Positions 19,609 to 43,167 of a DNA stretch of 44,916 bases are shown in pieces. The position numbers were made by a program, and so were the translations under genes. Every line of letters begins with the position of its first letter. Position 1 is the stretch's first letter. Location of the stretch: assembly GCA_030838075.1 (NCBI GenBank), contig JAUTXJ010000182.1:1-44916 (forward strand), in the 5' to 3' direction. This stretch comes from Acidobacteriaceae bacterium (GTDB lineage Bacteria; Acidobacteriota; Terriglobia; Acidiferrales; UBA7541). Under the pieces are notes generated by a model that made no database searches, was not told where the DNA came from, and saw nothing but the letters and a program-made list of their open reading frames with translations.

Positions 19609-20825
19609 TTGGAATCCCCCGGCAATGTCGCCTGAACAATTTGGACCTGCTGTCCGGTAATGATGGAGTCGGGTGGGTTGATAATGATCTGATCGTCCGA
19701 CTTGAGACCGGCGACGATCTCTATCTGATTGCCGAAATCGTGCCCAGGAGTCACGGCAGTAAGCGTAACTTTCTGATCCTTCACAACGCCCACACGCAAA
19801 CCCTCCGAGCGGAATATCAACGTGTTGACGGGAATAATGAACGTGGAAGACTGCGTGGGAACTTTCAAGTGGACTTCTGCATAAGAACCGGTGAGCAACG
19901 TGTTTGTGGGATTGGCCACATCAATTTCAATTAACAAGGTACGAGTCGTCATGTTGATGGCGTCAGCCGTGCGTACCAGGTTTCCCTGAAAGGTGCGGCC
20001 GGGAAACTCAGCGAGAGCAAGATCCGCGGTCATGCCCACTTTGACCCCCCGCGAGTATTCTTCCGGGACGTTTACGTAGACACGCAACATGCCGGGTTGA
20101 GCGATATGAAAGAGATCGGTTTTTACATTGGCGTTGCTACCAGAATTAATCAGGTCGCCAATATCGGTGTTGCGCGCCGTGATCACACCGTCGAACGGAG
20201 CGTAGACCTTTTCAAAAGATACCATTGCGGCGTACTGATCTACGGCGGCCTGGTCTGCCTGAACAATCGCTTTATTGGCGTTGTAAGTACCAACAGCGTT
20301 GTCGGAATCCTGCTGAGACACCGCATGCTTTTTCAAGAGCCCCTGGTATCGGGTCTTGGTGATAGTGGCGAGTTCAAGATTTGCCTGCGCGGTTAACAGA
20401 TTGCTGCGCGCCTGCTGAAGCTGTTGATCTACTTCCGGCGTTTCGATGACGGCAAGTAATTGACCCTTCTTGACGTGCGCGCCAATGTCGAAATACCACT
20501 TCTTCAAATATCCGTTGGTTCGCGCATAGACCGGTGAAGTGATGAATGGTTGTACGTTTCCCGGAAGGATGATCTCCTCGGCGGGCGCAGTTTGCTTTGG
20601 GGAAACAAGCGAAACAGCGGTTAGCGCCACTTGAGCGGTCTCCCCCTTCAGCTTTGTGCGGGCCCTGACACGGGACACGATGCCCGAGACCAACAGGGCG
20701 GCGACCACAACTACAGCGATGATCAGACCCAACCATCGCCGGGAAGGATGCTGCCTTCTTCCCGCATCGTTCGACGTCAGCGCTTGCCCGCCGGTTTGTT
20801 TTTTTTCTTCAGTTTGTTGCGACAT
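19605..20825 (-). CDS. RND efflux periplasmic adaptor (MFP/HlyD family)
   Basis: A 406-residue membrane-fusion protein. A positively charged leader precedes a membrane anchor at about residues 30-50 (WLGLIIAVVVVAALLVSGIV). The lipoyl/barrel-sandwich halves are IGAHVKKGQLLAVIETPE and FDGVITARNTDIGDL, with a helical hairpin between (QARSNLLTAQANLELA). Beta-barrel and membrane-proximal domains follow. It bridges the permease and the outer-membrane factor. It begins 22 bases after the permease stop and overlaps the next gene by 4 bases. Confidence 0.94.
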   Translation of the reverse strand: MSQQTEEKKQTGGQALTSNDAGRRQHPSRRWLGLIIAVVVVAALLVSGIVSRVRARTKLKGETAQVALTAVSLVSPKQTAPAEEIILPGNVQPFITSPVYARTNGYLKKWYFDIGAHVKKGQLLAVIETPEVDQQLQQARSNLLTAQANLELATITKTRYQGLLKKHAVSQQDSDNAVGTYNANKAIVQADQAAVDQYAAMVSFEKVYAPFDGVITARNTDIGDLINSGSNANVKTDLFHIAQPGMLRVYVNVPEEYSRGVKVGMTADLALAEFPGRTFQGNLVRTADAINMTTRTLLIEIDVANPTNTLLTGSYAEVHLKVPTQSSTFIIPVNTLIFRSEGLRVGVVKDQKVTLTAVTPGHDFGNQIEIVAGLKSDDQIIINPPDSIITGQQVQIVQATLPGDSK

Positions 20826-20847
20826 AGTGACTCCACACAGATTTTGC

Positions 20848-23800
20848 TTAGCTTTGGGCTTCCACTTGGGCTACCTGTTTACGCGAACCCTGCAGAACAC
20901 TGAAAAATGCCGGAACAAAAAACAGAGTCGAAACTGTAGCAAAGATAAGTCCGCCAATGACCGCACGGCCAAGAGGCGCATTTTGTTCGCCGCCGTCTCC
21001 CATTCCGAGGGCCATGGGCACCATCCCGATGATCATGGCCAGAGCGGTCATCAGCACGGGCCGAAAGCGCGTGAACCCAGCGTCCAGTGCGGCGCTGATG
21101 GAATCGCTTCCTGCCTCCATTTTTTCTGTCGCAAAGCTCACCACCAGGATGCTGTTGGAGGTGGCGACGCCCATGCACATAATGGCCCCCATGAGTGCGG
21201 GTACGCTGAGCGTCGTGTGCGTGATAAACAAAAACCACGCAATCCCGGCAAGCGCTGCGGGCAGCGCGGAAATCATGATGAAAGGATCCAGCCAGGACTG
21301 AAAGTTGACCACGATCAGCAGGTAAACGAGGATGATCGAGAACGCCAGGCCACTCAGAAGACCGACGTAAGACGCTCGCATAGTCTGAACCTGTCCGCGA
21401 ACAACGACTCGAGAACCACGAGGTAATTGCTGGCGACTAGCGTCAATGATTTTGTTGATGTCGCCAGCGACGCCGCCCAGATCGCGTCCTGTAACGGCGC
21501 CGAAGATGTCAATGACGGGCGCTACGTTGTAATGAGAAACCACGGCCATTCCGGAGCCTCGCTGGGTTGAAACTAAACTAGCCATGAGCGACGGGGGAGC
21601 ATTTGGGTCTGTGCCGGTGATAGGGATGTTCTGGACACCTTGCAGTGTGTCGGTGCGATACTGCGGCGTTTGGGTAGCAATTTGATAACTCACACGATTC
21701 TTGGGATCGACCCAGAACGTTGGCGAGGTTTGGAAGCTGCCACTCAGTGACACCAGAAGATTTTGCGCGATGTCGTGAGCAGTGAAACCAATTTGCTCGG
21801 CTTTGGTACGCTCGACCCGCATGCGCAGATAAGGCTCATCGAAGGGCTGCTGGATTCGCAAATCTGCTGTTCCAGTGACGTATTTCAACTTGACCAGCAG
21901 CGCATCTGCATAGCGCTGGTTTCCCTCCAGGTCGTTTCCCACGACTTGGACATCGATCGGGGCCGGCAGGCCAAAGTTCAGGATTTGGCTGACCATGTCG
22001 GCAGGCAAGAATGCGAACGTCGCGCCGGGAAATTGTTTTGGCAGTGTCAGGCGAAGTTGATGAATGTAGTCATCCGTAGGATGGTGCTTGGCGGCGAGCG
22101 TCACCAGAATGTCGGCGTCCGATGTGCCGACTGGAGCCGAGTTACTGTATGAAAGATTGATGCCGCTGTAGGGCAAACCTATGTTGTCAATAACATTCTG
22201 GAACTCGCTTGCTGGAATTTGCCCTCGAATGAAGCGCTCGACCTGATCGCAAAGATTGGCGGTTTCCTCGATGCGCATTCCCGTGGGCGCACGCAGATGA
22301 AGCTTGAAAGAGCCGCTGTCAACGCTGGGAAAAAAGTCCTGTCCTAGCCAGGGAATCAGTAGCGCGAGAGAGCCAAGACAGGTCGCAAAAAAGGCAATCA
22401 GGAAAGCACGCCGATGGTGCAGGCAACCTTCCAGCAATCCGCGATAGCTGTGATGGAATTTCTCGAATGCTGCTTCGAAGCCCTTCTGAAGCCGTACGAG
22501 CGGATTGCGGCTTGGGGATCCCGCTTCGTGTTTATCTCCCCGCAACAAATACTTGGCCATCGTCGGAACGATCGTCCGGGAAAGAAAGTAAGAAGCCAAC
22601 ATAGCGAACACCACTGCTTCCGCCAGCGGCACAAAGAGATACCGCGCCACACCAGACAACAAGAACATGGGAGCAAACACTATACAGATAGAAAGTGTAG
22701 ACACGAACGCGGGTGTGGCGATTTGGGATGCGCTGTCGAGGACAACTGCATCCATGTCCTTCTCGGGTTCCGCTTCACGGTTGCGATTTATGTTCTCAAC
22801 CTCAACGGTGGCGTCATCGACGAGGATGCCGACCGCCAGCGCAAGTCCGCCGAGGGTCATAATATTAATGGTTTCGCCAATAGCGCTAAACACGATGATG
22901 GAGCTCAGAATTGCCAAAGGGATGGAGGTGGCGATGATGAGCGTACTTCGCCAACTGCCCAGAAAAGCGAGAATCATGAATGCAGTCAGGCAGGCGGCGA
23001 TTAGCGTTTCGCGGACAACACCGCTGATCGCGCCACGAACAAAAATGGACTGATCCGCCAGCGGTGCGATATCGAGCTGCGGAGGAACGGTGGTCTTAAT
23101 TTGAGGCAGAAGGGCTTTAATGCCGGCGATCACGTTCAGCGTTGACGCGTTGCCGGTCTTTTGGATGGTCAGCAATACAGAGCGCTGGCCGTTGACGCGC
23201 ACGATGTTCGTCTGAGGAGGAAAGCCATCGCGCACCCACGCGACATCTTTGATGTAGATCGTAGTACCGCCAACCGTCTTGATGGGGATGCGGTTCAGGT
23301 CCGCAATCGTCTGCGGTGCCGCGTTGGGAATGGAGACATTGTATTCCCTGGAACCGATCTTGGACGTTCCGGTCGGCAGTATTAAATTTTGGACGCTGAT
23401 GGCATTGGTTACGTCCAGCGCTGACAGCCCCTTCGATTGCAGTGCGGTCGTATTCAGATCCACCTGCACCTGGCGCTGCTTTCCGCCATAGGGATAAGGC
23501 ACGGATGCGCCAGGCACGGTGATGAGCTGCGTCCGAATAAAATTCAAACCATAGTCGTTGAGTTCCTGCTCTGATAGGTTTTGCCCCGAGAGTGCCAACT
23601 GGAGAACCGGCACACTCGATGCGCTGTACGCAAGAATGAGAGGCGGTGTCGACCCTGCAGGCAACTGCTTGAGTTGGGTCTGGGAGACGGCCGTAATCTG
23701 CGCAATGCCTTGCTGAATGTTGGCGGTGGGCTGCAGAAACACTTTGACAACAGCAATTCCGTATAGCGATTGCGATTCGACGTGCTCGATATTATCAACG

Positions 23801-24021
23801 GTGGTGGTGAGCGATCGTTCTGTGATGCTAACGATACGGTCGGCCATGTCCTCAGGCACGAGGCCGTTATAGGTCCAGATAATGCTGACAACCGGAATGT
23901 CGATGTTCGGAAAAATGTCCGTCGGAGTGCGAAGGATCGCGAGCGCGCCCAGGAGCACAATGAGTATCGAGACGACCACAAACGTGTAAGGCCGGCTCAG
24001 TGCTAGTCTGACGATCCACAT
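20848..24021 (-). CDS. RND efflux permease (AcrB/MdtB-like HAE family)
   Basis: A 1057-residue inner-membrane proton-driven exporter. Membrane helix 1 lies at about residues 10-30 (FVVVSILIVLLGALAIL), two large periplasmic loops follow, and the TM4 proton-relay pair is in LAVGILVDDATVEVENINRN. The repeat in the second half has the cluster FSIILVYLLIVVNFQSWLDP and GVATSNSILVVSFA. The ATG at 24021 has GAGGGG 8 bases upstream; a GTG at 24030 is also open. It lacks the paired Lys/Glu changes that mark heavy-metal RNDs, as far as I can see, so organic substrates are more likely. First gene of the permease-adaptor-channel operon, behind a sigma-54-like promoter. Confidence 0.94.
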   Translation of the reverse strand: MWIVRLALSRPYTFVVVSILIVLLGALAILRTPTDIFPNIDIPVVSIIWTYNGLVPEDMADRIVSITERSLTTTVDNIEHVESQSLYGIAVVKVFLQPTANIQQGIAQITAVSQTQLKQLPAGSTPPLILAYSASSVPVLQLALSGQNLSEQELNDYGLNFIRTQLITVPGASVPYPYGGKQRQVQVDLNTTALQSKGLSALDVTNAISVQNLILPTGTSKIGSREYNVSIPNAAPQTIADLNRIPIKTVGGTTIYIKDVAWVRDGFPPQTNIVRVNGQRSVLLTIQKTGNASTLNVIAGIKALLPQIKTTVPPQLDIAPLADQSIFVRGAISGVVRETLIAACLTAFMILAFLGSWRSTLIIATSIPLAILSSIIVFSAIGETINIMTLGGLALAVGILVDDATVEVENINRNREAEPEKDMDAVVLDSASQIATPAFVSTLSICIVFAPMFLLSGVARYLFVPLAEAVVFAMLASYFLSRTIVPTMAKYLLRGDKHEAGSPSRNPLVRLQKGFEAAFEKFHHSYRGLLEGCLHHRRAFLIAFFATCLGSLALLIPWLGQDFFPSVDSGSFKLHLRAPTGMRIEETANLCDQVERFIRGQIPASEFQNVIDNIGLPYSGINLSYSNSAPVGTSDADILVTLAAKHHPTDDYIHQLRLTLPKQFPGATFAFLPADMVSQILNFGLPAPIDVQVVGNDLEGNQRYADALLVKLKYVTGTADLRIQQPFDEPYLRMRVERTKAEQIGFTAHDIAQNLLVSLSGSFQTSPTFWVDPKNRVSYQIATQTPQYRTDTLQGVQNIPITGTDPNAPPSLMASLVSTQRGSGMAVVSHYNVAPVIDIFGAVTGRDLGGVAGDINKIIDASRQQLPRGSRVVVRGQVQTMRASYVGLLSGLAFSIILVYLLIVVNFQSWLDPFIMISALPAALAGIAWFLFITHTTLSVPALMGAIMCMGVATSNSILVVSFATEKMEAGSDSISAALDAGFTRFRPVLMTALAMIIGMVPMALGMGDGGEQNAPLGRAVIGGLIFATVSTLFFVPAFFSVLQGSRKQVAQVEAQS

Positions 24022-24047
24022 AAATTGCACCCCTCAGAGCTGGAGGA

Positions 24048-24064
24048 TGCAGACTGGATGCCAC
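24048..24064 (-). promoter_or_regulatory. sigma-54-like promoter of the RND operon
   Basis: Minus strand reads TGGCATCCAGTCTGCA: GG-N10-GC spacing with TGGCA at -24 and TGCA at -12. The predicted start near 24037 leaves a short leader holding only the GAGGGG ribosome site. Activator-like sites lie 145-180 bp upstream. Confidence 0.6.
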
Positions 24065-24180
24065 GACGGAGATCCACGGAGAACTTCAGTAAGTGGTTGA
24101 TAACAGGAATGTTTCGAATTGGAGTCAGATACTACGGCGGCAGATGACGTCACGCAAAGAGTCCAGCACGGTGGACGGGA

Positions 24181-24219
24181 TGCCAATACTCTGACAGCGC
24201 GTGTCGACACTCCCGGACA
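24181..24219. promoter_or_regulatory. putative activator sites upstream of the RND operon
   Basis: 24181-24196 (TGCCAATACTCTGACA; reverse TGTCAGAGTATTGGCA) fits the shared pattern TGTC-N5-RTTGG. A looser dyad, TGTC-N9-GGACA, follows at 24202-24219. Both lie 145-180 bp upstream of the predicted sigma-54 start. Confidence 0.55.
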
Positions 24220-27791: not shown

Positions 27792-28748
27792 TTACTCGGC
27801 CTTGTGCCACGTCGAATCCGGGTCATACGCAGTCATCGCTTGCGCCAGCTTTGTCGTATTAGTACCGAGGTCCTTCTCGTAAATAGTCCCCGATTGGTCG
27901 ACGATAAAAGTCATTACACCTGACGAGCGGTATTCGACTGGATAGGCTACGAGGGCGAAGCCCCCGCTCATTTTCCCATTGACGATGTATTTCTTGGCGC
28001 CGCCCGGTGCATGTCCTCCCTGACGAGTGAGTATACGGAACATATATCCGTTGAACGGCACGTGCTGGCCAACCTGGTCCGTTGGAAGATTTTGCCGCGC
28101 GTACGCGATGAGCGGGTTGATTGGGCTATCAGCCTCATCAGCGGCACCCTGAAAGTACAGGCCGTTGTGCCCACCTTCATCGCTAACCAGTTTTTGGGCA
28201 TATTGCTTGGGATCGCCGGCCGGCGCACGCGTAAAGTATTGCTGTTGCGCTTCCACCAAATCGTGCAACGCACCCAAGGCTGCAACTTCATTTTTACCAA
28301 TACGGCGGAACAGAATCTCGTCTTTGCCCTCCGACGTGTCGAAATACCACGAACCGTGATTGTTCACCAAGGGAATTGGAAATGGCCAATTTTCGGCTCC
28401 GATAACCAGCGTCACCTTTCCGTCCGGTTCTGTCACGAATCGATGCATCTCCTGGTATTTGGTGACGAATCCAACGCGAGCATCCGAATCCTCTTCCGCG
28501 TCGCCGGACGAAAGCACATCCTTTCCGGCTGGCCCGAGGATCCGCAATGGCGCTTTTTCGTCCTGCCCCTGCATGGCGGCAAAGAACTCGCTGCCAGCTT
28601 CTTCAGCAGACGTAAAAGTTCGCTGCCCGGGCGCCTGGCCGAACGCTGGCCCAGAGATACAGCCCACAGAAAGTGCGAAGGCTGCTGATATTACCAATCG
28701 AATTAATTTGCGTTCAAGTCGTACGGCAATTGAAAAATTGTGCAGCAT
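27792..28748 (-). CDS. DUF2950 family exported protein
   Basis: A 318-residue protein with a basic N-terminus and signal segment (LIRLVISAAFALSVGCISGPAFG), then the DUF2950 fold: TFTSAEEAGSEFFAAMQ, SGDAEEDSDARVGFVTKYQEM, WPFPIPLVNNHGSWYFDTSEG, LVEAQQQYF and the C-terminal FALVAYPVEYRSSGVMTFIV. Family function is unknown; members are often next to DUF3300 genes, as here. I chose the ATG at 28748 because GGAGAAG lies 6 bases upstream; an ATG 15 bases earlier has a weaker site. Cys in the signal region (VGCISG) leaves a lipoprotein possible. Last gene of the envelope-protein run. Confidence 0.9.
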   Translation of the reverse strand: MLHNFSIAVRLERKLIRLVISAAFALSVGCISGPAFGQAPGQRTFTSAEEAGSEFFAAMQGQDEKAPLRILGPAGKDVLSSGDAEEDSDARVGFVTKYQEMHRFVTEPDGKVTLVIGAENWPFPIPLVNNHGSWYFDTSEGKDEILFRRIGKNEVAALGALHDLVEAQQQYFTRAPAGDPKQYAQKLVSDEGGHNGLYFQGAADEADSPINPLIAYARQNLPTDQVGQHVPFNGYMFRILTRQGGHAPGGAKKYIVNGKMSGGFALVAYPVEYRSSGVMTFIVDQSGTIYEKDLGTNTTKLAQAMTAYDPDSTWHKAE

Positions 28749-28804
28749 GATATTCTTCTCCATTTTTGAAATTCTCAATAAGCTCTACTCAACCAGCTGT
28801 GCGA

Positions 28805-29869
28805 TCAACGACGCCCACCGCCACCGTGGAAACCACCGCCATGGAAGCCACCGCCGCCAAAGCTCGACCGCCCACGGGAAGAAAAGCCTCGTGTATTGCC
28901 GCCGTGATCAAATCCACTAAATGCGCTGGAGCGCGTACCTGATTGAGCGTGAAAAGACGAGGACCCACCTCCGTGGAACGCATTGCCATGACTGACGCTG
29001 GCATGGCTGACGTTGCCGCGGTTGGAGCCGCCATGGTTAAGGTTGCCGCGGTTGAAGTTATTGCGGCTGAAGTTGTTGCGATTGACGATCGTTCGGCTAT
29101 GGGAGACGTACGTGTTGTGGTTATACATCACCGACCGCCCGTGCCAGTCGTATCCCCAGTGACCCCAGCCCCACCCAAATCCGCCGAAAAAGCCGATCCC
29201 GAAGCCGAGCCCAAATCCAATGCCCACTCCGGCCAAAAAGAGCCCCGGCTCGGGATACCAGCCGGGATATGCGACGATCGGCTCACCGTACACGAGCCAG
29301 GGATCGTACTGCGGCACGTAGACGACTTCAGGATTAGCCGGTTCAACGACGATGGTGCTGCCTTGAGTCGTTACCTTCTCCTGTTCGTTGCTATCCAGGT
29401 GGCCGTTCTTGTGAGCTTGCTGACGTAACGTTTGGACAGCGTCCGTCACATCCTGCTGCTGGTTAGCGTATGCGTCGCCAAGAGATGAAGTCCAAGAGAG
29501 GTTCTTGTCCATGTTTTCAAGAACCGCAGGAAATTGCGCCAGAGCCTTTACGCTCGGGTCCCAGGACTGTTTGTCGACTTCTTTTGCCAGCTCTTCCCCC
29601 TTGAGGTTCGAATGACTTTGCACCCAGCGGTCCGCCTCGACAATCTCCGCCGGATACGTTGACGCCGCCAGAATTTGTGCAACCAGAGCGTCCGGATACA
29701 AAGCGATCGGCGCGACGAGTTGCTGCAGTTCTTGCGGGGTCTGTTGCACGGTCGGCGTCGGCGCCTGTTCGCTAGATTGGCCCGTAGGCCCGAAAGACTC
29801 GGCCTGCGCAGTGAATTGCACAAGCAAACAACAAAGAAGTAAGGTCAAAATCTGCTTGGATAACTTCAT
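28805..29869 (-). CDS. DUF3300 family exported protein with Gly/Asn/His-rich tail
   Basis: A 354-residue protein with a cleavable signal (ILTLLLCCLLVQFTAQAES). The DUF3300 region covers about residues 40-215: QQLVAPIALYPDALVAQILAA, WVQSHSNLKGEELAKEVDKQ, WDPSVKALAQFPAVLENM and VYVPQYDPWLVYG. A glycine/tryptophan-rich hydrophobic stretch (about 215-245) precedes a repetitive tail of RNNF/RGN/HGG units ending in repeated FHGGG. The tail looks disordered and could bind metal or surfaces through His, which is inference. GGAG lies before the ATG. It sits 56 bp upstream of the DUF2950 gene. Confidence 0.9.
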   Translation of the reverse strand: MKLSKQILTLLLCCLLVQFTAQAESFGPTGQSSEQAPTPTVQQTPQELQQLVAPIALYPDALVAQILAASTYPAEIVEADRWVQSHSNLKGEELAKEVDKQSWDPSVKALAQFPAVLENMDKNLSWTSSLGDAYANQQQDVTDAVQTLRQQAHKNGHLDSNEQEKVTTQGSTIVVEPANPEVVYVPQYDPWLVYGEPIVAYPGWYPEPGLFLAGVGIGFGLGFGIGFFGGFGWGWGHWGYDWHGRSVMYNHNTYVSHSRTIVNRNNFSRNNFNRGNLNHGGSNRGNVSHASVSHGNAFHGGGSSSFHAQSGTRSSAFSGFDHGGNTRGFSSRGRSSFGGGGFHGGGFHGGGGRR

Positions 29870-29965
29870 GGCATATTCTCCAGTACAAAAAAATCAGATC
29901 ATTCATTGGTGTCAAACCCGTGTTGAAACAATTTCGTGAACCGTCGTCAACAGCATCGAAGAACG

Positions 29966-30475
29966 TTATTGGCCGCGCAGCGTCCCCGGCTGCATGTCAT
30001 TGCGGCGGGCCAAGTCTTCCAGTGCGTCTAGTTGCGTTTGTGTTTCACTTACTTGCTGCTGAAGGATTTCAATGCCGGCTTCGGGTGTGATGCCTATGTC
30101 GCCGTCATTCAGATTTATGCCGCCGGTCATGGTCTCAAGGCTCGTCGCGTCTTCGATCGCTTGACTGTATCTATCGAGTTCAGTCCGGCTTCGTTCGAGT
30201 TCATCGCGCAGTCTCGCTGACTCTTCCGCATACCACTCTGGGTCCTGGGTTTTGACGTATTCTGCAGGCAGAGTTGCTGGCTTTGGCTTCTCTTGATCAA
30301 TCTGACCTACAACGGAAATCAGGCCGAGACTGTGAAGTCTTGCCAAATCATCGTTGGTCCACAGCACCGTATTCTCACTGCCCGTTCCTACGTGCGGCCC
30401 ATTGGCCGCACGCAGCGGTAAGGCTACTAAAACGAACCCAAGAGTGACGGCATGCAAGTAGCGAATCATGGGCAT
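29966..30475 (-). CDS. Exported hypothetical protein with coiled coil
   Basis: A 169-residue protein I do not recognise. A signal peptide is likely (YLHAVTLGFVLVALPLRAAN). After it come WTNDDLARLHSLGLISVVGQ, then a long charged helix predicted as coiled coil (AEESARLRDELERSRTELDR), a Gly/Asp-rich turn and a second helix (IEILQQQVSETQTQLDALED). The ATG lies only 4 bases after the upstream DUF4136 stop, so it is co-translated with it. A structural periplasmic role next to the DUF4136 and DUF3300 proteins is plausible but unproven. Confidence 0.75.
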   Translation of the reverse strand: MPMIRYLHAVTLGFVLVALPLRAANGPHVGTGSENTVLWTNDDLARLHSLGLISVVGQIDQEKPKPATLPAEYVKTQDPEWYAEESARLRDELERSRTELDRYSQAIEDATSLETMTGGINLNDGDIGITPEAGIEILQQQVSETQTQLDALEDLARRNDMQPGTLRGQ

Positions 30476-30479
30476 GCCG

Positions 30480-31025
30480 TTATTTCTTTGAAGAGCCTGG
30501 AGGGAATTGCTTGAACATTTTCTCCACGCCCTTATCCAGATTCTTGATGTTCTTGTCGGATTTGTTGGAGAGGGTATCGCTGGTGGTACCTCTCCAGATC
30601 AGTTGCTTAGTCTTGGTATCGAATAGATCGACGACCACCGTGCCCACCTTGTATGTTTCCGTTGTGGTGGTAGCGTCTCCAAAACCTCCGCCTCCAAATC
30701 GCCGCCAACCCCAGCCTCCTCCAAAGCCGTCATAGAAGGTATTCAAAGTCTGCTGGTCGCGCGTCATTTCTACGGCTACGATGGAAACATCGCCGCCGGA
30801 ATCCACCTGGGTCCATCCTTTTGCGGCCAATGCGGTATTGACGGCACTCTTGATGCGATCGACATCCAGAGCGTCTTGCGTCTTAACGTGCTCCCATGAG
30901 TAGGTCTTGTATTGCGCGAAGTTAGCGCTGCGGTCGTAATCGGTCTTCACCTGCTGTGCCGACGCCTTGCCTGCGAACAACAACAAGAGCCCAATCAAAA
31001 CAACTACGATCTTTTGCATTTTCAT
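30480..31025 (-). CDS. DUF4136 family exported protein
   Basis: A 181-residue protein beginning with a signal peptide (MQKIVVVLIGLLLLFAGKASA). The DUF4136 body shows VKTDYDRSANFAQYKTYSW, VNTALAAKGWTQV, a Gly/Trp-rich loop (FGGGWGWRRFGGGG) and the end VVVDLFDTKTKQLIWRGT. Members are periplasmic or lipid-anchored and of unknown function; this one has no Cys at the signal end, so it is probably soluble. AGGAGG lies 5-6 bases before the ATG at 31025. It is followed at 4 bp by the coiled-coil protein gene. Confidence 0.9.
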   Translation of the reverse strand: MKMQKIVVVLIGLLLLFAGKASAQQVKTDYDRSANFAQYKTYSWEHVKTQDALDVDRIKSAVNTALAAKGWTQVDSGGDVSIVAVEMTRDQQTLNTFYDGFGGGWGWRRFGGGGFGDATTTTETYKVGTVVVDLFDTKTKQLIWRGTTSDTLSNKSDKNIKNLDKGVEKMFKQFPPGSSKK

Positions 31026-31114
31026 AATTCCTCCTTTTTTGAAATTCAGACTAACCATTCCGCGAGAGCGGACAATTTAGTTGCACTCCAGCAGGTTGTA
31101 GTTTTACCGAGCCG

Positions 31115-31612
31115 CTATTTCCCTTGTTTCTTGCCGTGGCGCGCCGATACGTGTGTCTGACCTTCCATGGCTGTTTGTTGACTGATTCTCTTTTCGTAGC
31201 CAGACTCGGAAACCTGGGCGCCGCTGGGGTTGCCTTCGTCAAACATCTTCGCAAGGAAATAGCGATTCCCGTATTTGTTGAAGAGCAATTCGGTTTTGGT
31301 CGGTTCTGAGTTGCTGTCCGCCTCACGGACTTGGAAGAGGGCTGAGACAGAGCCATCCATGCTGCTAATTTCCATCATTGTCAGATCGGAATTGTCCAAC
31401 ACGTGGATGCGGTACTCGCCCGCTGGAAACTTGGTGTTGCCAGCGTGGAACTGGAATGGGATTTTGGCTTCAAGATCGCCAATGATCTGTGCGTTTGCCT
31501 TGGTCGGGTAAATCGTCAATGCAAAAACCAAGCCGATGAGTAACGACAGTAAGTGACGGCGTCTTGTCGCCTTGTGGCTTGCAGTGACCTTGTTGATGAC
31601 TTCGGTGGACAT
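31115..31612 (-). CDS. Exported hypothetical protein, first gene of the envelope operon
   Basis: A 165-residue protein with a long basic leader and signal segment (HLLSLLIGLVFALTIYPTKANA). The mature part starts IIGDLEAKIPFQFHAGNTKF and PAGEYRIHVLDNSDLTMMEI, a beta-rich arrangement I recall in many unnamed secreted acidobacterial proteins. The C-terminus is charged and His/Lys-rich. GAGGAG precedes the ATG. A good sigma-54-like promoter lies about 56 bp upstream of the start codon. It is the probable first gene of the run to the DUF2950 gene (gaps 89, 4, 96 and 56 bp), with no clear terminator seen between them. Function unknown. Confidence 0.8.
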   Translation of the reverse strand: MSTEVINKVTASHKATRRRHLLSLLIGLVFALTIYPTKANAQIIGDLEAKIPFQFHAGNTKFPAGEYRIHVLDNSDLTMMEISSMDGSVSALFQVREADSNSEPTKTELLFNKYGNRYFLAKMFDEGNPSGAQVSESGYEKRISQQTAMEGQTHVSARHGKKQGK

Positions 31613-31679
31613 AGTAATTTCTCCTCATTTCTGTCGCCATCGAAAAGAATCCGTTCGCCGAGCGACACGACTCAGTTAC

Positions 31680-31696
31680 GCAACGCGGCTGCCAAA
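31680..31696 (-). promoter_or_regulatory. sigma-54-like promoter of the envelope-protein operon
   Basis: Minus strand reads TTTGGCAGCCGCGTTGC, matching TTGGCA at -24 and TTGC at -12 with GG-N10-GC spacing. Predicted start near 31668, 56 bases before the ATG at 31612. Confidence 0.6.
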
Positions 31697-31778
31697 GGTA
31701 TCCCTTGCGTAAGTGGTTGAAAGTACGGGGTAAATACAGGCACCAATGTGGTGTGCAATGCCAGCCAGCTAAACACGA

Positions 31779-31795
31779 CGTCCGAATGCCGACAG
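31779..31795. promoter_or_regulatory. degenerate activator-like site upstream of the envelope operon
   Basis: Reverse strand reads CTGTCGGCATTCGGACG: TGTC and GGAC at nearly the shared spacing, one base shorter, and TCGG in place of TTGG. It is about 110-127 bp upstream of the predicted start. The weakest member of the site family. Confidence 0.3.
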
Positions 31796-31859
31796 GCTCA
31801 GTGACAGTTATATTTTTTCAGGGTGTATCAGGCGATTTCGAATTCAGTCCGCAATTACG

Positions 31860-32489
31860 CTACTTTTTACCGGCTGGAAGTTCCAGTTTCGACGCCATTC
31901 GAACCAACTCTGCCACCGAGTCGGCTTGCATCTTCCGCATCACGTGACCGCGATGAATCTTCACCGTGATTTCGCTGATTCCCAGCTCAAAAGCTATCTG
32001 CTTATTCAGCATGCCAGAGACCACCAGGCCCATCACCTGTCGTTCGCGTTCGCTCAAGGTCTGGTAGCATTTCCGCAACTCACTGACGTCGCTTTGCTGA
32101 CGGCGCGCCGCTCGGTCACGATCCAGAGCCTGGTGGATCGCATCCAGCAACTCCTCATCCAGGAAAGGCTTAGTCAGGAACTCCACCGCACCGGATTTCA
32201 TGGCCTTAACGGTCATCGGAATATCTCCGTGACCGGTGATGAAGATAATTGGGATTCGAACGCCGGCGTCAACCAATTCGCGTTGCAAATCCAGACCATT
32301 GACTCCCGGAAGGGTCACATCCAGGACCAGGCAGCTGGGCCCGTCTGGCCGCTTGCTCCGCAGAAATTCTTCTGCCGTGCTGAAACATGTGGACCGTAAA
32401 CTCGCCGATTTCAGCAGTCCCTCGATGGACGCGCGCACACCGTCATCGTCATCGACGACGAACACCGTCGGCGCGTCGGTGCCCGTCAT
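31860..32489 (-). CDS. FixJ/TtrR-type response regulator
   Basis: A 209-residue two-domain regulator. Receiver: [15 protein letters not shown] with the acidic pair, phospho-acceptor Asp in [12 protein letters not shown] near residue 57, [13 protein letters not shown] and Lys in FLTKPF. The FixJ-style linker leads to a LuxR-type [23 protein letters not shown] and [17 protein letters not shown]. It binds DNA as a dimer when phosphorylated and probably works with sigma-70-type polymerase, so it is not the sigma-54 activator predicted for this region. The ATG overlaps the kinase stop by 4 bases. Confidence 0.94.
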
Positions 32490-34060
32490 TCAGGCGTCTC
32501 AGCGTTGGTGGGCAGCGTGAAATAAAAAATTGCGCCCCGCGGGGTGTTGTCCGCAGCCCACAAACGGCCGCCATGTGATTCGATGATGGAGCGGCTGATG
32601 CGAAGTCCCATGCCGGTCCCGTGCGGCTTGGTAGTAAAGAATGGATTGAAGATCTGTTCCGTCTGCTGGGCGGGCAGCCCCACGCCGCTGTCGGTGACGG
32701 ACACCACAACTTCCTGGGCTTGCGTTTTCTGCGACCGGATGGCGAGTTCGCCCATCCCATTTACGTCCTTCATCGCTTCAATGCCATTGATCATGAGGTT
32801 CATAAGCACCTGCTGCAATTGCACGCGGTCGGCCATGACCTGCGGAAGACCGGCCGCAAGTTCCGTCCCGACGAATATGTTGTATCGCGTGATCTCACCC
32901 CGCAGAAGAACAATCATCTCCCGAATAATCTCGTTTACGTCCAGGAACTCCCGTTGCGAAGTACCTTTCTTGAAGAGTTGCCGGACCCGATTGACAATCT
33001 CACCCGCGCGCTGAGCGTCTTTCGCGATTCTCATTGCCGCCGCACGCGCCTCTTCGATGTTTGGAGGGTCGTTATTGAGCCACCGCAAGCAAGTATTGGC
33101 GTTGGTGCTGGCTGCTGCGATTGGTTGATTCACTTCGTGCGCCAGAGAAGCGGTCAGCTCGCCCATGGTGGTCACCCGGCTGACGCGCGCAAGATCCGCT
33201 TGCGTCTGGCGTAAAGACTCTTCTCCCAGTCGTCGCTCTGTGACATCCATGGAAGTACCCACAAATTCCACCAAATTCCCGGATACGTCTAAAACCGGAT
33301 GACCGACGGTCTGAATGTATCTGAGCGTGCCGTCGGGAAGAAGGATCCGGAATTCCATTTGGTAATCCGACGCTTCTGCGATTGCCCGATCAATTTCTCC
33401 TGTCCACTTGGCTCGATCCTCCGGATGAACGCACTGCACTCGCTCGTCCCAGGCGGGCGGGCCCTTTTCTGGATCGAAGCCATATATGCGATACCACTCG
33501 TCGGACAAGTGCAACGCCTTCTTCCCCTCAACCCGCCAGGCCCAACTCCCCATATGGGCGAGCCTCTGTGCCTCCGCTAAATAACCTTCGCTCCGGCGCA
33601 ACGATTCTGCTGCGCGGTCACGCTCGCGGCTCGCTGCTTGCAGCACCTCGTTGGTCCTTTGGAGCTCTTGAACTGTCACTTTGAGCTCATCGCGCGAGTG
33701 CCGCAGCGACTCCGTCGCGTTTCTTTGAGCAACGGTCAGCAACCCAACAAACAAGGCCGAAACCATGAAAATTGCAAAGCGTGGAATTTCTTCCGGCTTT
33801 GCACCGATTGAATAGATCGGAGGCAGGAAGTAATAATAAAAAGCAAGCGCTGAGAGAGCCGTCGCGAACAGTCCGGGCCACGCTCCGCCGAACCACGCAC
33901 TCATTATGACCGCGCAAAGAAAAAGTGATACGGGAGCAGATTGCAAGTGAAGCATGGGCCACCGTGAAACGATCAGCGCGGCGGCAACCGCAACACCAGC
34001 AATCCAATAGCTCCAAATCGCCGGCAGCCTGGGCCACAGAAGAGGATTAAACTTCGCCAT
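32486..34060 (-). CDS. Membrane sensor histidine kinase (DUF4118, PAS, HisKA)
   Basis: A 524-residue kinase. Four membrane helices of a DUF4118/KdpD-like unit occupy about residues 15-115 (including [27 protein letters not shown] and [16 protein letters not shown]). A coiled coil, then a PAS domain with PAC (about 170-290; [21 protein letters not shown]), follow. The HisKA box [19 protein letters not shown] carries the His, and the ATPase domain has [17 protein letters not shown] and GTGMGL. This matches the FixL/TtrS-like kinases that pair with FixJ-type regulators. ATG at 34060 with GGGGG before it; the regulator gene overlaps its stop. Signal unknown. Confidence 0.92.
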
Positions 34061-34175
34061 TACCCCCGCTTTCAGCAAATCGCGCGCTGCACTCCGGGAA
34101 AATCTTAACATCAGGGTACGCCTGCACGTACGTAGGCGACCAAACTTCTGTGTTGGGGCAAGTCTTGTGGGCCAT

Positions 34176-34209
34176 CCAAATCCCTAGACAAACTGCCAAT
34201 ATCCCGACA
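34176..34209. promoter_or_regulatory. putative activator sites upstream of the ECF sigma gene
   Basis: 34194-34209 (TGCCAATATCCCGACA; reverse TGTCGGGATATTGGCA) fits TGTC-N5-RTTGG. A near-copy with one extra base lies at 34176-34190 (CCAAATCCCTAGACA). They are about 120-155 bp upstream of the predicted sigma-54 start, inside the 309-bp gap between the kinase and sigma genes. Confidence 0.6.
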
Positions 34210-34303
34210 ACTTGCCCGGAGTATGCCGACGCCAAAATGCGCTCAAACCATACATTCCCCCTTTCTTTCAGCTATTTGCCAGCCAGACTCGCACCGTTCA
34301 CCT

Positions 34304-34320
34304 TTGGCGCGCCTATTGCT
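34304..34320 (+). promoter_or_regulatory. sigma-54-like promoter of the ECF sigma gene
   Basis: TTGGCGCGCCTATTGCT differs from the consensus TTGGCACG-N4-TTGCT at a single position. Predicted start near 34331, about 39 bases before the GTG start codon. This is the best -24/-12 match I found in the window. Confidence 0.7.
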
Positions 34321-34369
34321 TTGTTCACTGGTGTCGGCCGTTAGGACAAATGGTGAGGAGGACGGGATC

Positions 34370-35011
34370 GTGGAAGACTTTCAAGCCTATGGGGTGGATA
34401 AACAATCTGAGGGCATGCTGGTGACTGCGGCAAAGCGGGGGAATGCGCCCGCGCTCGAAGAGTTGGTTCTTCGTCACGAGCGCAGAGTTTTTGCCGTGGC
34501 GCAACGAATAACGAATAATCGTGAGGATGCCGAAGATGTCGTGCAGGAAACGTTTCACAAGGTTTTCCTGCACCTCGACAGCTTCCAAGAAAAATCGCGG
34601 TTTTCTACCTGGCTGACGCGAATCGCCATGAATGAAGCTTTTATGCTGCTGCGTCGCAGGCGCGGAGTTTTCGAAGACTTGCCGGACAGCACTGACGAAG
34701 CCGCGAAGTCTGAATCAGAGATATTCGTCGACCAGCGTCCCAATCCCGAAGAAGCTTGCGCCCAACGCGAGCACACCCAACTATTGAGCGAGGCAATCAA
34801 TCGTCTGGGTCCTACGGTTCGAACAGCGATACTGCTTCGTGACATCCAAGAAAGGTCTGTCGAGGAAGCTGCTCAGATCCTAGGCACCACACGCAGCGCC
34901 GTAAAAGCACGCGTTTTTCAAGGGCGCCGGAAGTTACGTAGAATAGTAAATTCCGGACTCCTGTGGAAACCTTACGCATCGCCTCCGCGGCAAGCTCAGC
35001 GCTGCGGCTAA
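34370..35011 (+). CDS. ECF-type RNA polymerase sigma factor
   Basis: A 213-residue sigma factor. Region 2 covers LEELVLRHERRVFAVAQRIT, the core-binding DAEDVVQETFHKVFLHLD and promoter-recognition FSTWLTRIAMNEAFMLLRRR. A longer acidic linker leads to region 4: LSEAINRLGPTVRTAILLRD, SVEEAAQILGTTRSAVKARV and the final FQGRRKLRRIV. The GTG at 34370 is chosen because GAGGAGG lies 8 bases upstream; the frame also runs back to 34223 through non-protein-like sequence. No anti-sigma gene follows. It is divergent from the FixL/FixJ-like pair and sits behind the strongest sigma-54-like promoter of the window. Confidence 0.92.
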   Translation: MEDFQAYGVDKQSEGMLVTAAKRGNAPALEELVLRHERRVFAVAQRITNNREDAEDVVQETFHKVFLHLDSFQEKSRFSTWLTRIAMNEAFMLLRRRRGVFEDLPDSTDEAAKSESEIFVDQRPNPEEACAQREHTQLLSEAINRLGPTVRTAILLRDIQERSVEEAAQILGTTRSAVKARVFQGRRKLRRIVNSGLLWKPYASPPRQAQRCG

Positions 35012-38942: not shown

Positions 38943-39824
38943 TCAACCGCGCGTTGCAGCCATTGCGGGTACTCGCGATAGCTTTTCGTATTCTTCCTTG
39001 GACAAGGGCAAGGAAGCCGCTGCAACGTTCTGCTCAAGATGTTCGACCGAAGAAGTACCCGGGATGGGCAGCACGATCGGAGATCGGTGCAGCAACCAGG
39101 CCAGCGCTATCTGCGTGGGGCTCGCATTGCGTGCTTGAGCGATTCGGTTGAGCACTTCGCCGGCAACTTTACCCGCTCCCAGTGGGAACCAAGGTATAAA
39201 CGTAATTCCATTGCGCTCGCAATAATCCACTACGTAGTCCCATTCGCGGTCAGCAAAACTGTAGCGGTTTTGCACGGACACAATTGGAACAATTTTGCGT
39301 GCCCGTTCGATGTGTTCTTGGGTGACGTTGGACAGCGCCACAAGGCGAATCTTGCCCTCGTTTCGCAGTTGCGCCAGGGTTTCTACCGACGCCTCAAAGG
39401 GGATGACCGGATCTGGCATATGCAATTGATAAACGTCGATGCGCTCCAGGCGCAGACGCTTCAGGCTTCCCTCAATCGCCTTGCGAAGGTGATCGGGACT
39501 GGCGTCGTGCGTCCACTGATTCGGACCAGGGCGATTCCAGCCTCCCTTGGTGGCAATTACGAGCCCTGCAGGGTAAGGATAAAGCGCTTCGGCAATCAGC
39601 TCCTCGCTGACATGCGGACCGTAGGAATCCGCGGTGTCAATGAAATTGACACCAAGCTCCACGGCGCGGCGAAGAACAGCCAGTGCTTTATTGCGATCTT
39701 TCGGCGGTCCCCAAATGCCTTCGCCGGTTAGGCGCATTGCGCCGAACCCGAGACGATGTACGGAGATTTCTCCGCCCAGCGATACGCTTCCAGCCAAACT
39801 TGCAGAAACTTCTTTCTTATTCAT
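38943..39824 (-). CDS. Aldo/keto reductase
   Basis: A 293-residue cytosolic NADPH-dependent reductase of the AKR superfamily. Catalytic residues by motif: Asp in NFIDTADSYGPHVSE, Tyr in the same motif, Lys in VIATKGGWN, and His in VYQLHMPDP. The C-terminal cofactor part shows SPTQIALAWLLHRSP and VLPIPGTSSVEHLEQNV. It reduces aldehydes or ketones; substrate unknown. GGAGGA precedes the ATG. It follows a second aldo/keto reductase gene by 121 bp and may be the last gene of the reductase operon. Confidence 0.93.
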   Translation of the reverse strand: MNKKEVSASLAGSVSLGGEISVHRLGFGAMRLTGEGIWGPPKDRNKALAVLRRAVELGVNFIDTADSYGPHVSEELIAEALYPYPAGLVIATKGGWNRPGPNQWTHDASPDHLRKAIEGSLKRLRLERIDVYQLHMPDPVIPFEASVETLAQLRNEGKIRLVALSNVTQEHIERARKIVPIVSVQNRYSFADREWDYVVDYCERNGITFIPWFPLGAGKVAGEVLNRIAQARNASPTQIALAWLLHRSPIVLPIPGTSSVEHLEQNVAAASLPLSKEEYEKLSRVPAMAATRG

Positions 39825-39945
39825 GATTGTCCTCCAACGTTTTTTTCTTAACTAAATCCCGCGCTAACGCCCTTCGCTTAAGCCTTAACCGTTGAAACGC
39901 CAGCGCCAGAAAATTCTCAATACTGACAGTCACTATCTTCTTCTG

Positions 39946-41028
39946 CTAGCCAAGCCACTGCGGGTTGGCATAGGTGCCATCGAACCGGTGACTCGTCTTA
40001 TAAAGCTCAAACTGCCCCGCTTCCGCGGCTTTTGCCGTTTTCACCAGAAGCGCGCTAACTTCCGAAGAGTTCATCGGCTGAAAACTGCGAGCCGCTTGAA
40101 GCGCTTGCTGAAGAATCGGCAGCGAATCGCAGCCGGTAATAACCACACTCGTCGGAAGGCTCATCGCATAGCGCAAGCACTCCACCGGCGTGGCTGTTTT
40201 GCTCTCGAGAATCACGTGATCACCCATAGGCTTCATACCGAGAACGCCGATGTCACCCTTGAGCAGCACCGGCAAAACTTTCTGTTCGAAACTGTTGAAA
40301 TGCGCGTCCATTACGTTCAGCGGCATCTGAACCGCGTCAAACGTGAAGCCGTGCGTTGAAGCGGTGGCTAGCATTTTCAAATGGATGTCTGGACTCTTGT
40401 GTCCGGTGAAACCGATGAATCGGATCTTGCCCGCCTTTTGTGACTCCAGGACCGCCTCCATCGCTCCGCCTTCGGCAAATATGCGATCTGGATCGGTGTC
40501 GCGAATCACTTCGTGAAATTGAAGCAGGTCGATGCGGTCAGTCTGGAGCCGGCGCAGTGACTCATTGATTTGACCAGTTGCGGCTGTTTTGCTGCGCCCG
40601 TCGATCTTGGACATGAGAAACGCTTTTTGGCGATAACCGTCGCGTAGTGCGTTACCCATGCGGACTTCGCTCTCGCCATCGTTGTAGTCCCAGCAGTTGT
40701 CGAGAAAATTTACGCCCTCATCGAGGCCCGTTCGAATGATGCGAATGCTTTCCTGAGGATCTGCCTGTTTGCCAAGATGATAGCCACCGAGACCGACGAG
40801 CGAAACTTTCTCTTTGCTACGGCCCAAGGTGCGATAAGGAATGCCGTTCCTGGAGTCTGATCGTAGGGACTGCTGCCCTGCGTGCGCCAGAAGAATTGAT
40901 GCTGCCGCAAATCCGAGGAATCCTCGCCTGGACATGCTGTCGTCAGAGGCGTCGTGAGAAGTGGCAACTGACACGCGATCCGGGTGACGCGAGTCCTGTT
41001 GCCCATATTGATTATTTTTGTTTTCCAT
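39946..41028 (-). CDS. Tat-exported aldo/keto reductase
   Basis: A 360-residue aldo/keto reductase with a twin-arginine signal (SRRGFLGFAAA followed by SILLAHAG), so it should be exported folded, with cofactor bound. Catalytic residues: Asp and Tyr in NFLDNCWDYNDGES, Lys in LMSKIDGR, His in LLQFHEVIRD. The C-terminus lacks the usual long 4Fe-4S extension. The ATG at 41028 is chosen because GGGAGAA lies about 5 bases upstream; an extension to 41130 lacks a site and would overlap the monooxygenase gene. It differs from the neighbouring cytosolic reductase in both location and sequence, so they are not recent duplicates. Confidence 0.9.
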   Translation of the reverse strand: MENKNNQYGQQDSRHPDRVSVATSHDASDDSMSRRGFLGFAAASILLAHAGQQSLRSDSRNGIPYRTLGRSKEKVSLVGLGGYHLGKQADPQESIRIIRTGLDEGVNFLDNCWDYNDGESEVRMGNALRDGYRQKAFLMSKIDGRSKTAATGQINESLRRLQTDRIDLLQFHEVIRDTDPDRIFAEGGAMEAVLESQKAGKIRFIGFTGHKSPDIHLKMLATASTHGFTFDAVQMPLNVMDAHFNSFEQKVLPVLLKGDIGVLGMKPMGDHVILESKTATPVECLRYAMSLPTSVVITGCDSLPILQQALQAARSFQPMNSSEVSALLVKTAKAAEAGQFELYKTSHRFDGTYANPQWLG

Positions 41029-41126
41029 GTTTTCTCCCGAGCACTTTTTCAATAGCAAGGGGCAAATCACATTCTTGACGAAACCGTTGCCAACCCCTGA
41101 TTTCAATTTTCGCATCGCTGAAACTC

Positions 41127-41435
41127 TCACCTTGCAGCGGCGCCGGCCTGAATCGACTCCAAGATATTCACCTCGAAGGGCTCTTGTAGTACTCCCCCGG
41201 CAGTCTCCTCCAAGCGCTTAAAGTGAGGACTGGCTGCGTGCTTATCGAGCGTAGCTTGACTTTCCCATCTCTCGTAGAAATAGAAGCGCCCCTTCGTGTC
41301 GGACTCATAGAGTTCATACAATTTACATCCCGGTTCGGCGTGGGTAGGAGCCAACAAGCCCCGCAGGAGCTCCCTCAGTTGTTTTTCCTTACCCTTGCGA
41401 GCCGCAAATTTTGCAATCACACGTACTTCAGGCAT
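41127..41435 (-). CDS. ABM-domain monooxygenase (YgiN-like)
   Basis: A 102-residue dimeric alpha/beta-barrel protein of the antibiotic biosynthesis monooxygenase family. It starts VRVIAKFAARKGKEKQLREL, and has the conserved EPGCKLYELYES and FYFYERWESQATLDKHAASP His-containing helix. Members act on quinols or haem without a bound cofactor; YgiN is the model for quinol monooxygenases. AGGAGG lies before the ATG. Its place between an exported PPC-domain protein and a Tat-exported reductase suggests work on quinones or reactive carbonyls (inference). Confidence 0.92.
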   Translation of the reverse strand: MPEVRVIAKFAARKGKEKQLRELLRGLLAPTHAEPGCKLYELYESDTKGRFYFYERWESQATLDKHAASPHFKRLEETAGGVLQEPFEVNILESIQAGAAAR

Positions 41436-41490
41436 GGTTGTTCAGCCTCCTCTTTTTGTAGTTCCCTCGCAAACCAGACACGTTGCGATG

Positions 41491-42063
41491 TTATTTCAAA
41501 GCGGGATCAATCAACGTCAGATCCGTTGCCGGATCAAATCGCTTTTGCATCGTCACTGGATCGTCTGTAACCATTACTTCCAGCGTCGGTGACACATTCG
41601 CGTCGAGAACGTGACCGCCGAACGTTGTTCCATCTGGACTGCCCAGCACCATGTGGGTATGAACTACCGGTTTCCCTTTATAGAGCGCAATATCGCCGCT
41701 CATCCCAATCAATTCGTGCTGACCGTTAACGGGAATCTTCTTGTACATTTTTCGCTGGGGATCGAACCACCCGAGCGTTGCTCCATTCACGGCTCCGATA
41801 GCGGTGAAATGCGCGCTCGTAACGTGATACTTCTCGGCAAACTCCAGCAGTCCGGAGAAAGCCTCGTCTCCCTGGTAGAAAATAACCACATATTGCTTCG
41901 TCGCTTCTCCAGGGTTCAGCAATCGAACCTTCATCTTGGGCGCCTTGCCCTTAGGAGTAGCTTCGGACGGAGAAACATACTCGGTCGCCTCCTGCGAATA
42001 CCCCATCAAGCATGCGATTCCAATCAATCCCGCTATGCAGCCCAGTAGTTTCAGTTTAGACAT
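41491..42063 (-). CDS. Exported PPC/DUF296-domain protein
   Basis: A 190-residue protein. An N-terminal signal peptide (LLGCIAGLIGIACLMGYS) carries a possible lipobox near its end. The rest is a PPC/DUF296 domain: QYVVIFYQGDEAFSGLLEFA, SAHFTAIGAVNGATLGWFD, the metal-site motif VVHTHMVLG and TFGGHVLDANVSPTLEVMV. This trimeric fold is known from plant AT-hook proteins and from cytosolic prokaryotic proteins with a His-bound metal. Export makes a DNA-binding role unlikely here. GGAG precedes the ATG; the dehydrogenase gene ends 15 bp upstream. Confidence 0.88.
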   Translation of the reverse strand: MSKLKLLGCIAGLIGIACLMGYSQEATEYVSPSEATPKGKAPKMKVRLLNPGEATKQYVVIFYQGDEAFSGLLEFAEKYHVTSAHFTAIGAVNGATLGWFDPQRKMYKKIPVNGQHELIGMSGDIALYKGKPVVHTHMVLGSPDGTTFGGHVLDANVSPTLEVMVTDDPVTMQKRFDPATDLTLIDPALK

Positions 42064-42078
42064 AACGTGCTCTCCTAT

Positions 42079-42999
42079 TTATTTCTGCGCGTTGGCGGTG
42101 GAAGCCAAATGCGCGTATTTTTCCATTTGTAGAATTACCGCCGAAAAATCTTGCTCTGCTCCTTCGTCCGCTTGCCTCGCATTTATCTCGAAAGCAGCAC
42201 CCGCCGCGGGCATTCGCGCGCCAACGGCGGCGGCTAGATTTAGAATCAACCCGAAATCCTTGTTCATTAGTCGAATCGGAAATTGCGGGCTGTAATCGCT
42301 CTTGATCGCTTTTTCCAATTTGCCCACATGCGCCGGAGCCACTACCGCAGTCTCCGCAAGAACGTTCAATAAACGAGTGCGATCGAGCCCAGCTTTTTCA
42401 CCCAGCGCGACGGCTTCGGCAATCGCCTGCATTCCGATTCCGAGCAAGGTGTTCACCACCAGCTTCATCGTCGCTCCCGAGCCGCTCCGTCCCAGATAAA
42501 AATACTTCTTGGCGATCACCCGAAAGATGGACTCCACAGCGTCGAAGCACTGCTTGTCTCCGCCACCAAATAAAGTCAGCAATCCATTTTCAGCGGCCGG
42601 AGTACTCCCAGATATCGTCACGTCGAGAACTTCAACTCCACGCTCTGAGCCCAGCCTTGAGAGTTCCTGCGAGGTTTCGGGATATACCGTACTCGTGTCT
42701 ATGACTACCGAGCCGCTAACCGCATTGGCGAACACGCCGTCGGGTCCTCTATAAATGTCCAGCACCGCTTCATCGCTCGGAAGGCAGGACAACACGACGT
42801 TGCAGCGGGCGGCGAGTTCCGGAATGCTTTGCGCGACGGTGCCGCCATATCGCATTAACACTTCGGCCTTATCGTGGTCCCGGTCGTACGCTGTCAACTT
42901 GAAGCCAGATTCAAGTAACCTCCGCGCGATCGGCCGGCCCATGTAACCGACCCCCACAAATCCAAGCCTGCTATTTTCCTGCGTGATTGGTTTCATCAT
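42079..42999 (-). CDS. NAD(P)-dependent dehydrogenase of the 3-hydroxyisobutyrate family
   Basis: A 306-residue beta-hydroxyacid dehydrogenase. Rossmann motif GFVGVGYMGRPIARRLL begins near residue 13; SCLPSDEAVLDIY and VIDTSTVYPETSQ match the family; substrate motif DVTISGSTPAAENG near 130 and catalytic Lys in GATMKLVVNTLLG near 180; the C-terminal NKDFGLILNLAAA is also typical. Members include 3-hydroxyisobutyrate, tartronate-semialdehyde and succinic-semialdehyde (GLYR) reductases; the sequence does not separate these. A second ATG lies one codon in. It is the first gene of the reductase run ending at 38943, behind a sigma-54-like promoter. Confidence 0.92.
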   Translation of the reverse strand: MMKPITQENSRLGFVGVGYMGRPIARRLLESGFKLTAYDRDHDKAEVLMRYGGTVAQSIPELAARCNVVLSCLPSDEAVLDIYRGPDGVFANAVSGSVVIDTSTVYPETSQELSRLGSERGVEVLDVTISGSTPAAENGLLTLFGGGDKQCFDAVESIFRVIAKKYFYLGRSGSGATMKLVVNTLLGIGMQAIAEAVALGEKAGLDRTRLLNVLAETAVVAPAHVGKLEKAIKSDYSPQFPIRLMNKDFGLILNLAAAVGARMPAAGAAFEINARQADEGAEQDFSAVILQMEKYAHLASTANAQK

Positions 43000-43053: not shown

Positions 43054-43069
43054 AGCACGCTGTGTGCCG
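43054..43069 (-). promoter_or_regulatory. sigma-54-like promoter of the reductase operon
   Basis: Minus strand reads CGGCACACAGCGTGCT: GGCAC at -24, TGCT at -12, GG-N10-GC spacing. Predicted start near 43043, about 44 bases before the ATG at 42999. Confidence 0.6.
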
Positions 43070-43167
43070 TTCCACAAGTAACCGCCGAGAGTAGTTCAAG
43101 ACGCTGGCACGAAGCAGGATACGAAGTTAAACAGACAGGACTTCAACCTCAGTTGGCGAGCGTTGCC

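Follow-up and report, generated by a model that had tools for sequence, protein, structure and literature searches.

The window analysed here, a whole contig of 44,916 nucleotides from an Acidobacteriaceae bacterium, carries a gene encoding an ECF sigma factor that has no anti-sigma gene next to it and lies behind a sequence resembling a sigma-54 promoter. This raises the question of how such a sigma factor is controlled. A sequence-only reading of the window had proposed that sigma-54 control stands in place of anti-sigma control and makes a sigma-to-sigma cascade. This proposal is supported by the conserved synteny of the locus, by an intact rpoN gene, by an ortholog of the sigma-54 activator (EBP) in the genome, and by the presence of a zf-HC2 gene beside related ECF genes and not beside those of the clade. 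It is likely that the ECF gene is transcribed via sigma-54 in a cascade running from a two-component system (TCS) through the EBP and sigma-54 to the ECF factor, without a linked anti-sigma factor. The features are listed in Table 1. The analysis works from sequence, mostly of fragmented metagenome-assembled genomes (MAGs); the MAG containing the window comprises 4.09 Mb in 447 contigs and is 83% complete.

Table 1. Features of the ECF locus, of other candidate sigma-54 targets in the window and of the receiver and EBP genes on contig C369.
Feature	Position	Strand	Remarks
RND efflux operon: AcrB-type pump, membrane fusion protein, outer-membrane factor	18106..24030	-	Predicted co-regulated target
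Candidate sigma-54 promoter TGGCATCCAGTCTGCA of the RND efflux operon	24048..24063	-	Similar sites before orthologous pumps
Second strong enhancer copy, one mismatch	24174..24197	+	Upstream of the RND operon
Candidate sigma-54 promoter TGGCAGCCGCGTTGCG of the 31612..27792 envelope-protein operon	31679..31694	-	
CAACCACTTAC block	31708-31722		Before the 31612..27792 operon
UAS-like CACTGAGCCTGTCGGCATTCGGAC	31780-31803		Before the 31612..27792 operon
FixJ/NarL-type response regulator, receiver + GerE	31860..32489	-	Overlaps the kinase gene; Pfam; syntenic in relatives
Histidine kinase, DUF4118-PAS-HisKA-HATPase	32486..34111	-	Divergent; Pfam; syntenic in relatives
Enhancer (UAS) palindrome GACAAACTGCCAATATCCCGACAA	34187..34210	+	94 bp upstream of the -24 element
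Conserved block, consensus CAGccACTTCC	34269..34282	+	Between enhancer and promoter; 12-locus alignment
Sigma-54-type promoter (-24/-12) TGGCGCGCCTATTGCT	34305..34320	+	One mismatch; kept in 12/12 orthologs
Shine-Dalgarno AGGAGG	34356..34361	+	Sequence
ECF sigma factor gene	34370..35011	+	GTG start, 213 aa; no adjacent anti-sigma; Pfam
Dehydrogenase/aldo-keto reductase operon: NAD-binding dehydrogenase, PCC-domain protein, ABM monooxygenase, two aldo/keto reductases	38943..42999	-	Pfam; syntenic in relatives
Candidate sigma-54 promoter CGGCACACAGCGTGCT of the dehydrogenase/aldo-keto reductase operon	43054..43069	-	Two mismatches
UAS-like GACAGTGGTCCACGGATTCGACAG	43167-43190		Spacing 97 to CGGCACACAGCGTGCT
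EBP gene, window genome	Contig C369, L074:11837-12838		46 bp after the lone receiver gene
Lone receiver gene, window genome	Contig C369, L074:12884-13261		

A solitary ECF gene

The ECF protein is matched in Pfam by Sigma70_r2 (70 bits) and Sigma70_r4_2 (51 bits), both far over the cut-off, and by the NCBIfam sigma70-ECF model (111 bits). It contains regions 2 and 4 only and has no sigma-3 domain, which is the composition of the ECF family. The sequence-only reading had placed the gene behind a near-perfect sigma-54 promoter and given it a normally spaced GTG start; both statements hold, with positions correctly given, a single mismatch in the promoter, an intact reading frame and a ribosome-binding site ahead of the GTG. 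The gene is solitary, the kinase gene being divergent upstream and the downstream gene (35322-35756) convergent.

Orthologs were taken from the same genus, the same family and GTDB contigs. The 12 ECF orthologs form a monophyletic clade in the maximum-likelihood tree (support 100/98). The clade is confined to one Acidobacteria gp2 family, where it was found in 10 of the 399 genomes of the class and on one GTDB contig; no clade ECF was detected outside the family among the 399 genomes (E<=1e-55).

In none of the 12 clade neighbourhoods was the ECF gene accompanied by an anti-sigma gene, in keeping with the class of transcription-controlled ECF factors without an anti-sigma, to which HrpL and SigE/CseBC belong. 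The earlier remark that no anti-sigma gene follows is borne out by the convergent orientation of the downstream gene and by a scan of 11 clade members, in which the 500 bp after the ECF gene contained no HxxxCxxC zinc-finger anti-sigma motif; at L062, one such motif is present on the opposite strand, in a stop-containing frame. ECF paralogs of the same family, 44-48% identical, overlap a 79-aa zf-HC2 gene by 4 bp, and the tree separates off each of the two groups, the sigma-54 clade and the zf-HC2-coupled one, as one side of a branch. This pattern fits the replacement of anti-sigma control by transcriptional control, a succession of events that we infer.

Some ECF factors are kept by unlinked anti-sigma factors, and the sigma-54 promoter could be real and yet set only the level of a factor that is also held by such a protein. 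A comparable division exists for E. coli sigma-E, where RpoN/QseF acts at one rpoE promoter while sigma-E is held by RseA, which still controls its activity. The incompleteness of the MAG leaves room for a gene of this kind, and the P2 promoter of E. coli rpoE is RpoN/QseF-dependent (PMC8103513). However, the clade loci contain no anti-sigma gene, that of the related ECF factors overlaps its partner by four base pairs, and the ECF gene of the clade stands alone, so that an additional unlinked anti-sigma factor seems unlikely.

The enhancer and the divergent operon

Sigma-54 control of the ECF gene without a linked anti-sigma factor presupposes an enhancer and an activator. In the alignment of the 12 ECF loci, the upstream palindrome has the consensus GACrGAgTGCCAACAnTCyGACAG and is separated from the -24 element by 94-97 bp in 11 of the 12 clade members, the contig of the twelfth ending short, while the rest of the upstream DNA shows an identity of only about 50%. 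The copy in the window, with three mismatches, is among the most diverged of the set. A pattern search of nine genomes showed that the enhancer pattern is rare elsewhere and that most of these genomes have their best match at the ECF locus. In the window genome, however, the ECF-locus copy is outscored by the copy upstream of the RND operon, and in G105 the copy is shifted by one base and was hence missed by the pattern. At other sigma-54 promoters, an IHF site is located between enhancer and promoter. The conserved block found in this position might likewise be an IHF-type bending site, and the window genome includes three IHF/HU-family genes. A decayed duplicate of the ECF locus was also observed (L084, contig C193 of genome G018), with a palindrome, a sigma-54 site and an ECF-like start that runs into an early stop; it adjoins an aldo/keto reductase gene.

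The synteny that bears on the sigma-to-sigma proposal is conserved in relatives, where the sigma-54 promoter, the palindrome and the ECF gene lie divergent from an operon for one or more histidine kinases, a FixJ-like regulator, a lone receiver (125 aa) and an EBP. The EBPs of the relatives are of about 335-370 aa, contain the GAFTGA motif and have no N-terminal sensory domain. In the window, the kinase and regulator genes are still at the locus, the receiver and EBP genes are not, and the divergent kinase is the probable signal input. A remnant of the receiver and EBP genes was sought between 31612 and 31860 in the window and none was found. Loss of the EBP from the window genome was considered and rejected, as the ortholog is present on contig C369. 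It is 78-85% identical to the EBPs of the relatives, begins 22 residues ahead of the AAA+ domain and has a Fis-type HTH at its C-terminal end.

Two further observations concern the composition of these loci. At L061 and L065, the second kinase of the divergent operon seems, as judged by eye, to have a MHYT-like membrane sensor at its N-terminus, ahead of PAS domains. Genome G079 contains two copies of the sigma-54-ECF locus (L066 and L073), only one of them with a linked EBP.

The window genome encodes about 12 EBPs, so the pairing of the ECF gene with the C369 EBP rests on synteny. With so many activators, and with the EBP situated here on another contig, a different EBP could use the enhancer and promoter, the syntenic operon for kinase, regulator, receiver and EBP being a neighbour with its own targets. 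However, the operon stays divergent to the enhancer across several genera, even where the driven gene has been replaced. G106, which has no clade ECF, possesses the same operon and palindrome and a perfect sigma-54 site at a spacing of 95 bp, and the gene driven there codes for a protein of 190 aa that matches nothing in Pfam; this arrangement indicates that enhancer and operon belong together. Besides, a full EBP ortholog (identity of at least 78%) is held by 8 of the 10 ECF genomes, and a ninth, G105, has a cut one. The use of another EBP is thus improbable. Close EBP orthologs (73% or more) were also found in five genomes that lack a clade ECF, so the EBP circuit is wider than the ECF arm. 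The ECF contig of G025 is cut.

The probable sigma-54 promoter of the ECF gene and candidate promoters of other operons

The promoter TGGCGCGCCTATTGCT has one mismatch to TGGCAC-N5-TTGCW and retains GG and GC. Judging it by the consensus alone was rejected, because 132 sites with at most one mismatch occur in the 4.09 Mb of the genome and 130 are found with the reversed pattern, so that about one site is expected per 45-kb window. The consensus match by itself is at chance level, and the site is significant because it is conserved in all 12 orthologs together with an enhancer at a fixed distance. A sigma-54 site with up to two mismatches within 300 bp upstream is present in 12/12 members of the ECF clade, in 13/134 other upstream regions of the same loci and in 1/24 paralogous ECF genes; for the first two, Fisher's test gives p=4e-11, a value inflated by the kinship of the 12 sequences, which makes the fixed enhancer spacing the stronger argument. 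Some of the 13 other genes with a site are in turn candidates for the same regulon.

The GG-N10-GC core and its flanks are conserved across the orthologs, the enhancer falls within the expected range of roughly 80-200 bp upstream, and the genome has both an EBP and an intact rpoN with the RpoN box RRTVAKYRE. That the match arose by chance and an ordinary sigma-70 or ECF promoter is used, as the near-equal number of reversed controls would allow, is highly improbable given the complete conservation, the constant enhancer spacing and the absence of a sigma-70-like site in the region searched between the kinase and ECF genes.

The sigma-54 site is located 63-72 bp before the start region in 8 of the 12 orthologs; in the other four it lies at about -270, with a small ORF between promoter and ECF gene. 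At L060, L061, L062 and L063, a conserved 33-codon ORF (M..SILDWYRILRAHHQWTIFQSIRYALWLAR) occupies this interval; most of its differences are synonymous (e.g. 10:1, 9:2), which makes a genuine small protein probable. This ORF was not found upstream of the ECF gene of the window.

Weaker copies of the enhancer/promoter layout precede the RND efflux operon and two other operons of the window. The palindrome copy of the RND operon is situated about 110 bp upstream of TGGCATCCAGTCTGCA; the pump was identified by Pfam (ACR_tran) and the other two genes of this operon were named by eye. Comparable sites precede the orthologous pumps of G018, G002, G105, G079 and G106, namely TGGCATCCGGGCTGCA (two genomes), TGGCATCCGGACTGCA, TGGCAGACGAGCTGCA and TGGCCACCCGGATGCA. 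The 31612..27792 operon encodes a secreted protein and DUF4136, DUF3300 and DUF2950 proteins, and its ortholog at L064 also has a sigma-54 site, TGGCCCCAGCATTGCT. Similar blocks are present upstream of the relatives' ortholog of a gene of the dehydrogenase/aldo-keto reductase operon, which is a predicted co-regulated target. A search for an ECF target promoter in the upstream regions of syntenic genes gave no convincing -35/-10 motif, and the conserved blocks met in it belonged to sigma-54 sites. In addition, more distant ECF genes at L071 and L072 lie close to STAS-like proteins and to an EBP of GAF-AAA-HTH type with about 700 aa (domains assigned by eye), and L072 also has a large RND-type gene cluster, another association of ECF, EBP and efflux genes.

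The proposed cascade and known systems

In the proposed cascade, RNA polymerase with RpoN (sigma-54) would transcribe the ECF gene from 34305-34320. A dedicated EBP with an AAA+ domain (GAFTGA) and a Fis-type HTH but no N-terminal sensory domain, represented by the C369 ortholog, would bind the palindrome about 105 bp upstream (34187-34210) and reach the polymerase through DNA looping. The divergent kinase and FixJ-like regulator, together with the lone receiver, would most likely set the amount or activity of the EBP. The regulated step would be the synthesis of the ECF factor and not its release, because there is no linked anti-sigma factor. It seems probable that the same EBP directly drives the RND efflux operon and two other nearby operons. 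We infer the binding of the EBP, the phospho-signalling, the absence of any unlinked anti-sigma and the targets of the ECF factor. There is perhaps an even chance that the complete cascade arose independently of the Hrp system of plant pathogens, with an EBP wired directly to an RND pump and to envelope and redox operons, and with the ECF factor as an amplifying arm added in one clade in place of an ancestral anti-sigma switch.

Most likely, one sigma factor here switches on another, which is of the stress type; until now plant pathogens have supplied the best-known examples of this design. A literature search on sigma-54 and ECF factors in Acidobacteria gave nothing relevant, and neither the word Acidobacteria nor the word ECF occurs in a large survey of sigma-54 regulons. 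For ECF factors that lack an anti-sigma, a review names HrpL as its sigma-54-transcribed example (PMC8999054). A second, distant case, if true, suggests that the chain of TCS, EBP lacking an N-terminal domain, sigma-54 and ECF factor is a recurrent switch design. It would also offer a natural comparison of related ECF factors with and without an anti-sigma, and give a family of soil Acidobacteria a predicted sigma-54 regulon (efflux, envelope, redox) with a concrete enhancer motif.

RpoS is not an ECF factor. In the Rrp2-RpoN-RpoS cascade of Borrelia, sigma-54 drives the gene of this other sigma factor through one EBP (PMC12655853), whereas the Acidobacteria locus is predicted to drive an ECF gene. 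An ECF gene with an RpoN promoter and the EBP QseF is known in E. coli, namely rpoE with its P2 (PMC8103513). That promoter is one of several, whereas the Acidobacteria ECF gene is notable for having no linked anti-sigma. The zf-HC2-coupled ECF factors, which come from the same genus and family as the window ECF, differ in their overlapping anti-sigma gene, and 23 of the 24 paralogs examined have no sigma-54 site.

A close parallel is the HrpXY-HrpS-RpoN-HrpL system of Erwinia, Pantoea and Dickeya, comprising a TCS, a sigma-54 EBP, a UAS, IHF and an ECF factor free of an anti-sigma, and its counterpart HrpRS-RpoN-HrpL of Pseudomonas syringae, where HrpL is ECF32 (PMC2494611, PMC2698875, PMC5263251, PMC8999054, PMC8103513). 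The Acidobacteria locus differs in belonging to another phylum, in the extra lone receiver, in an operon divergent to the ECF gene and in its linked predicted targets (an RND pump, envelope proteins and oxidoreductases). Among the annotated proteins of the window and flanking loci, none for type III secretion was seen. Like the Hrp cascade, it has a TCS, an EBP, a UAS/IHF-like layout, a sigma-54 promoter and an anti-sigma-free ECF factor, and TCS, EBP, promoter and ECF gene form one conserved locus. Without claiming membership in Hrp/ECF32, it can be proposed by analogy that the Acidobacteria locus works like HrpXY-HrpS-HrpL.
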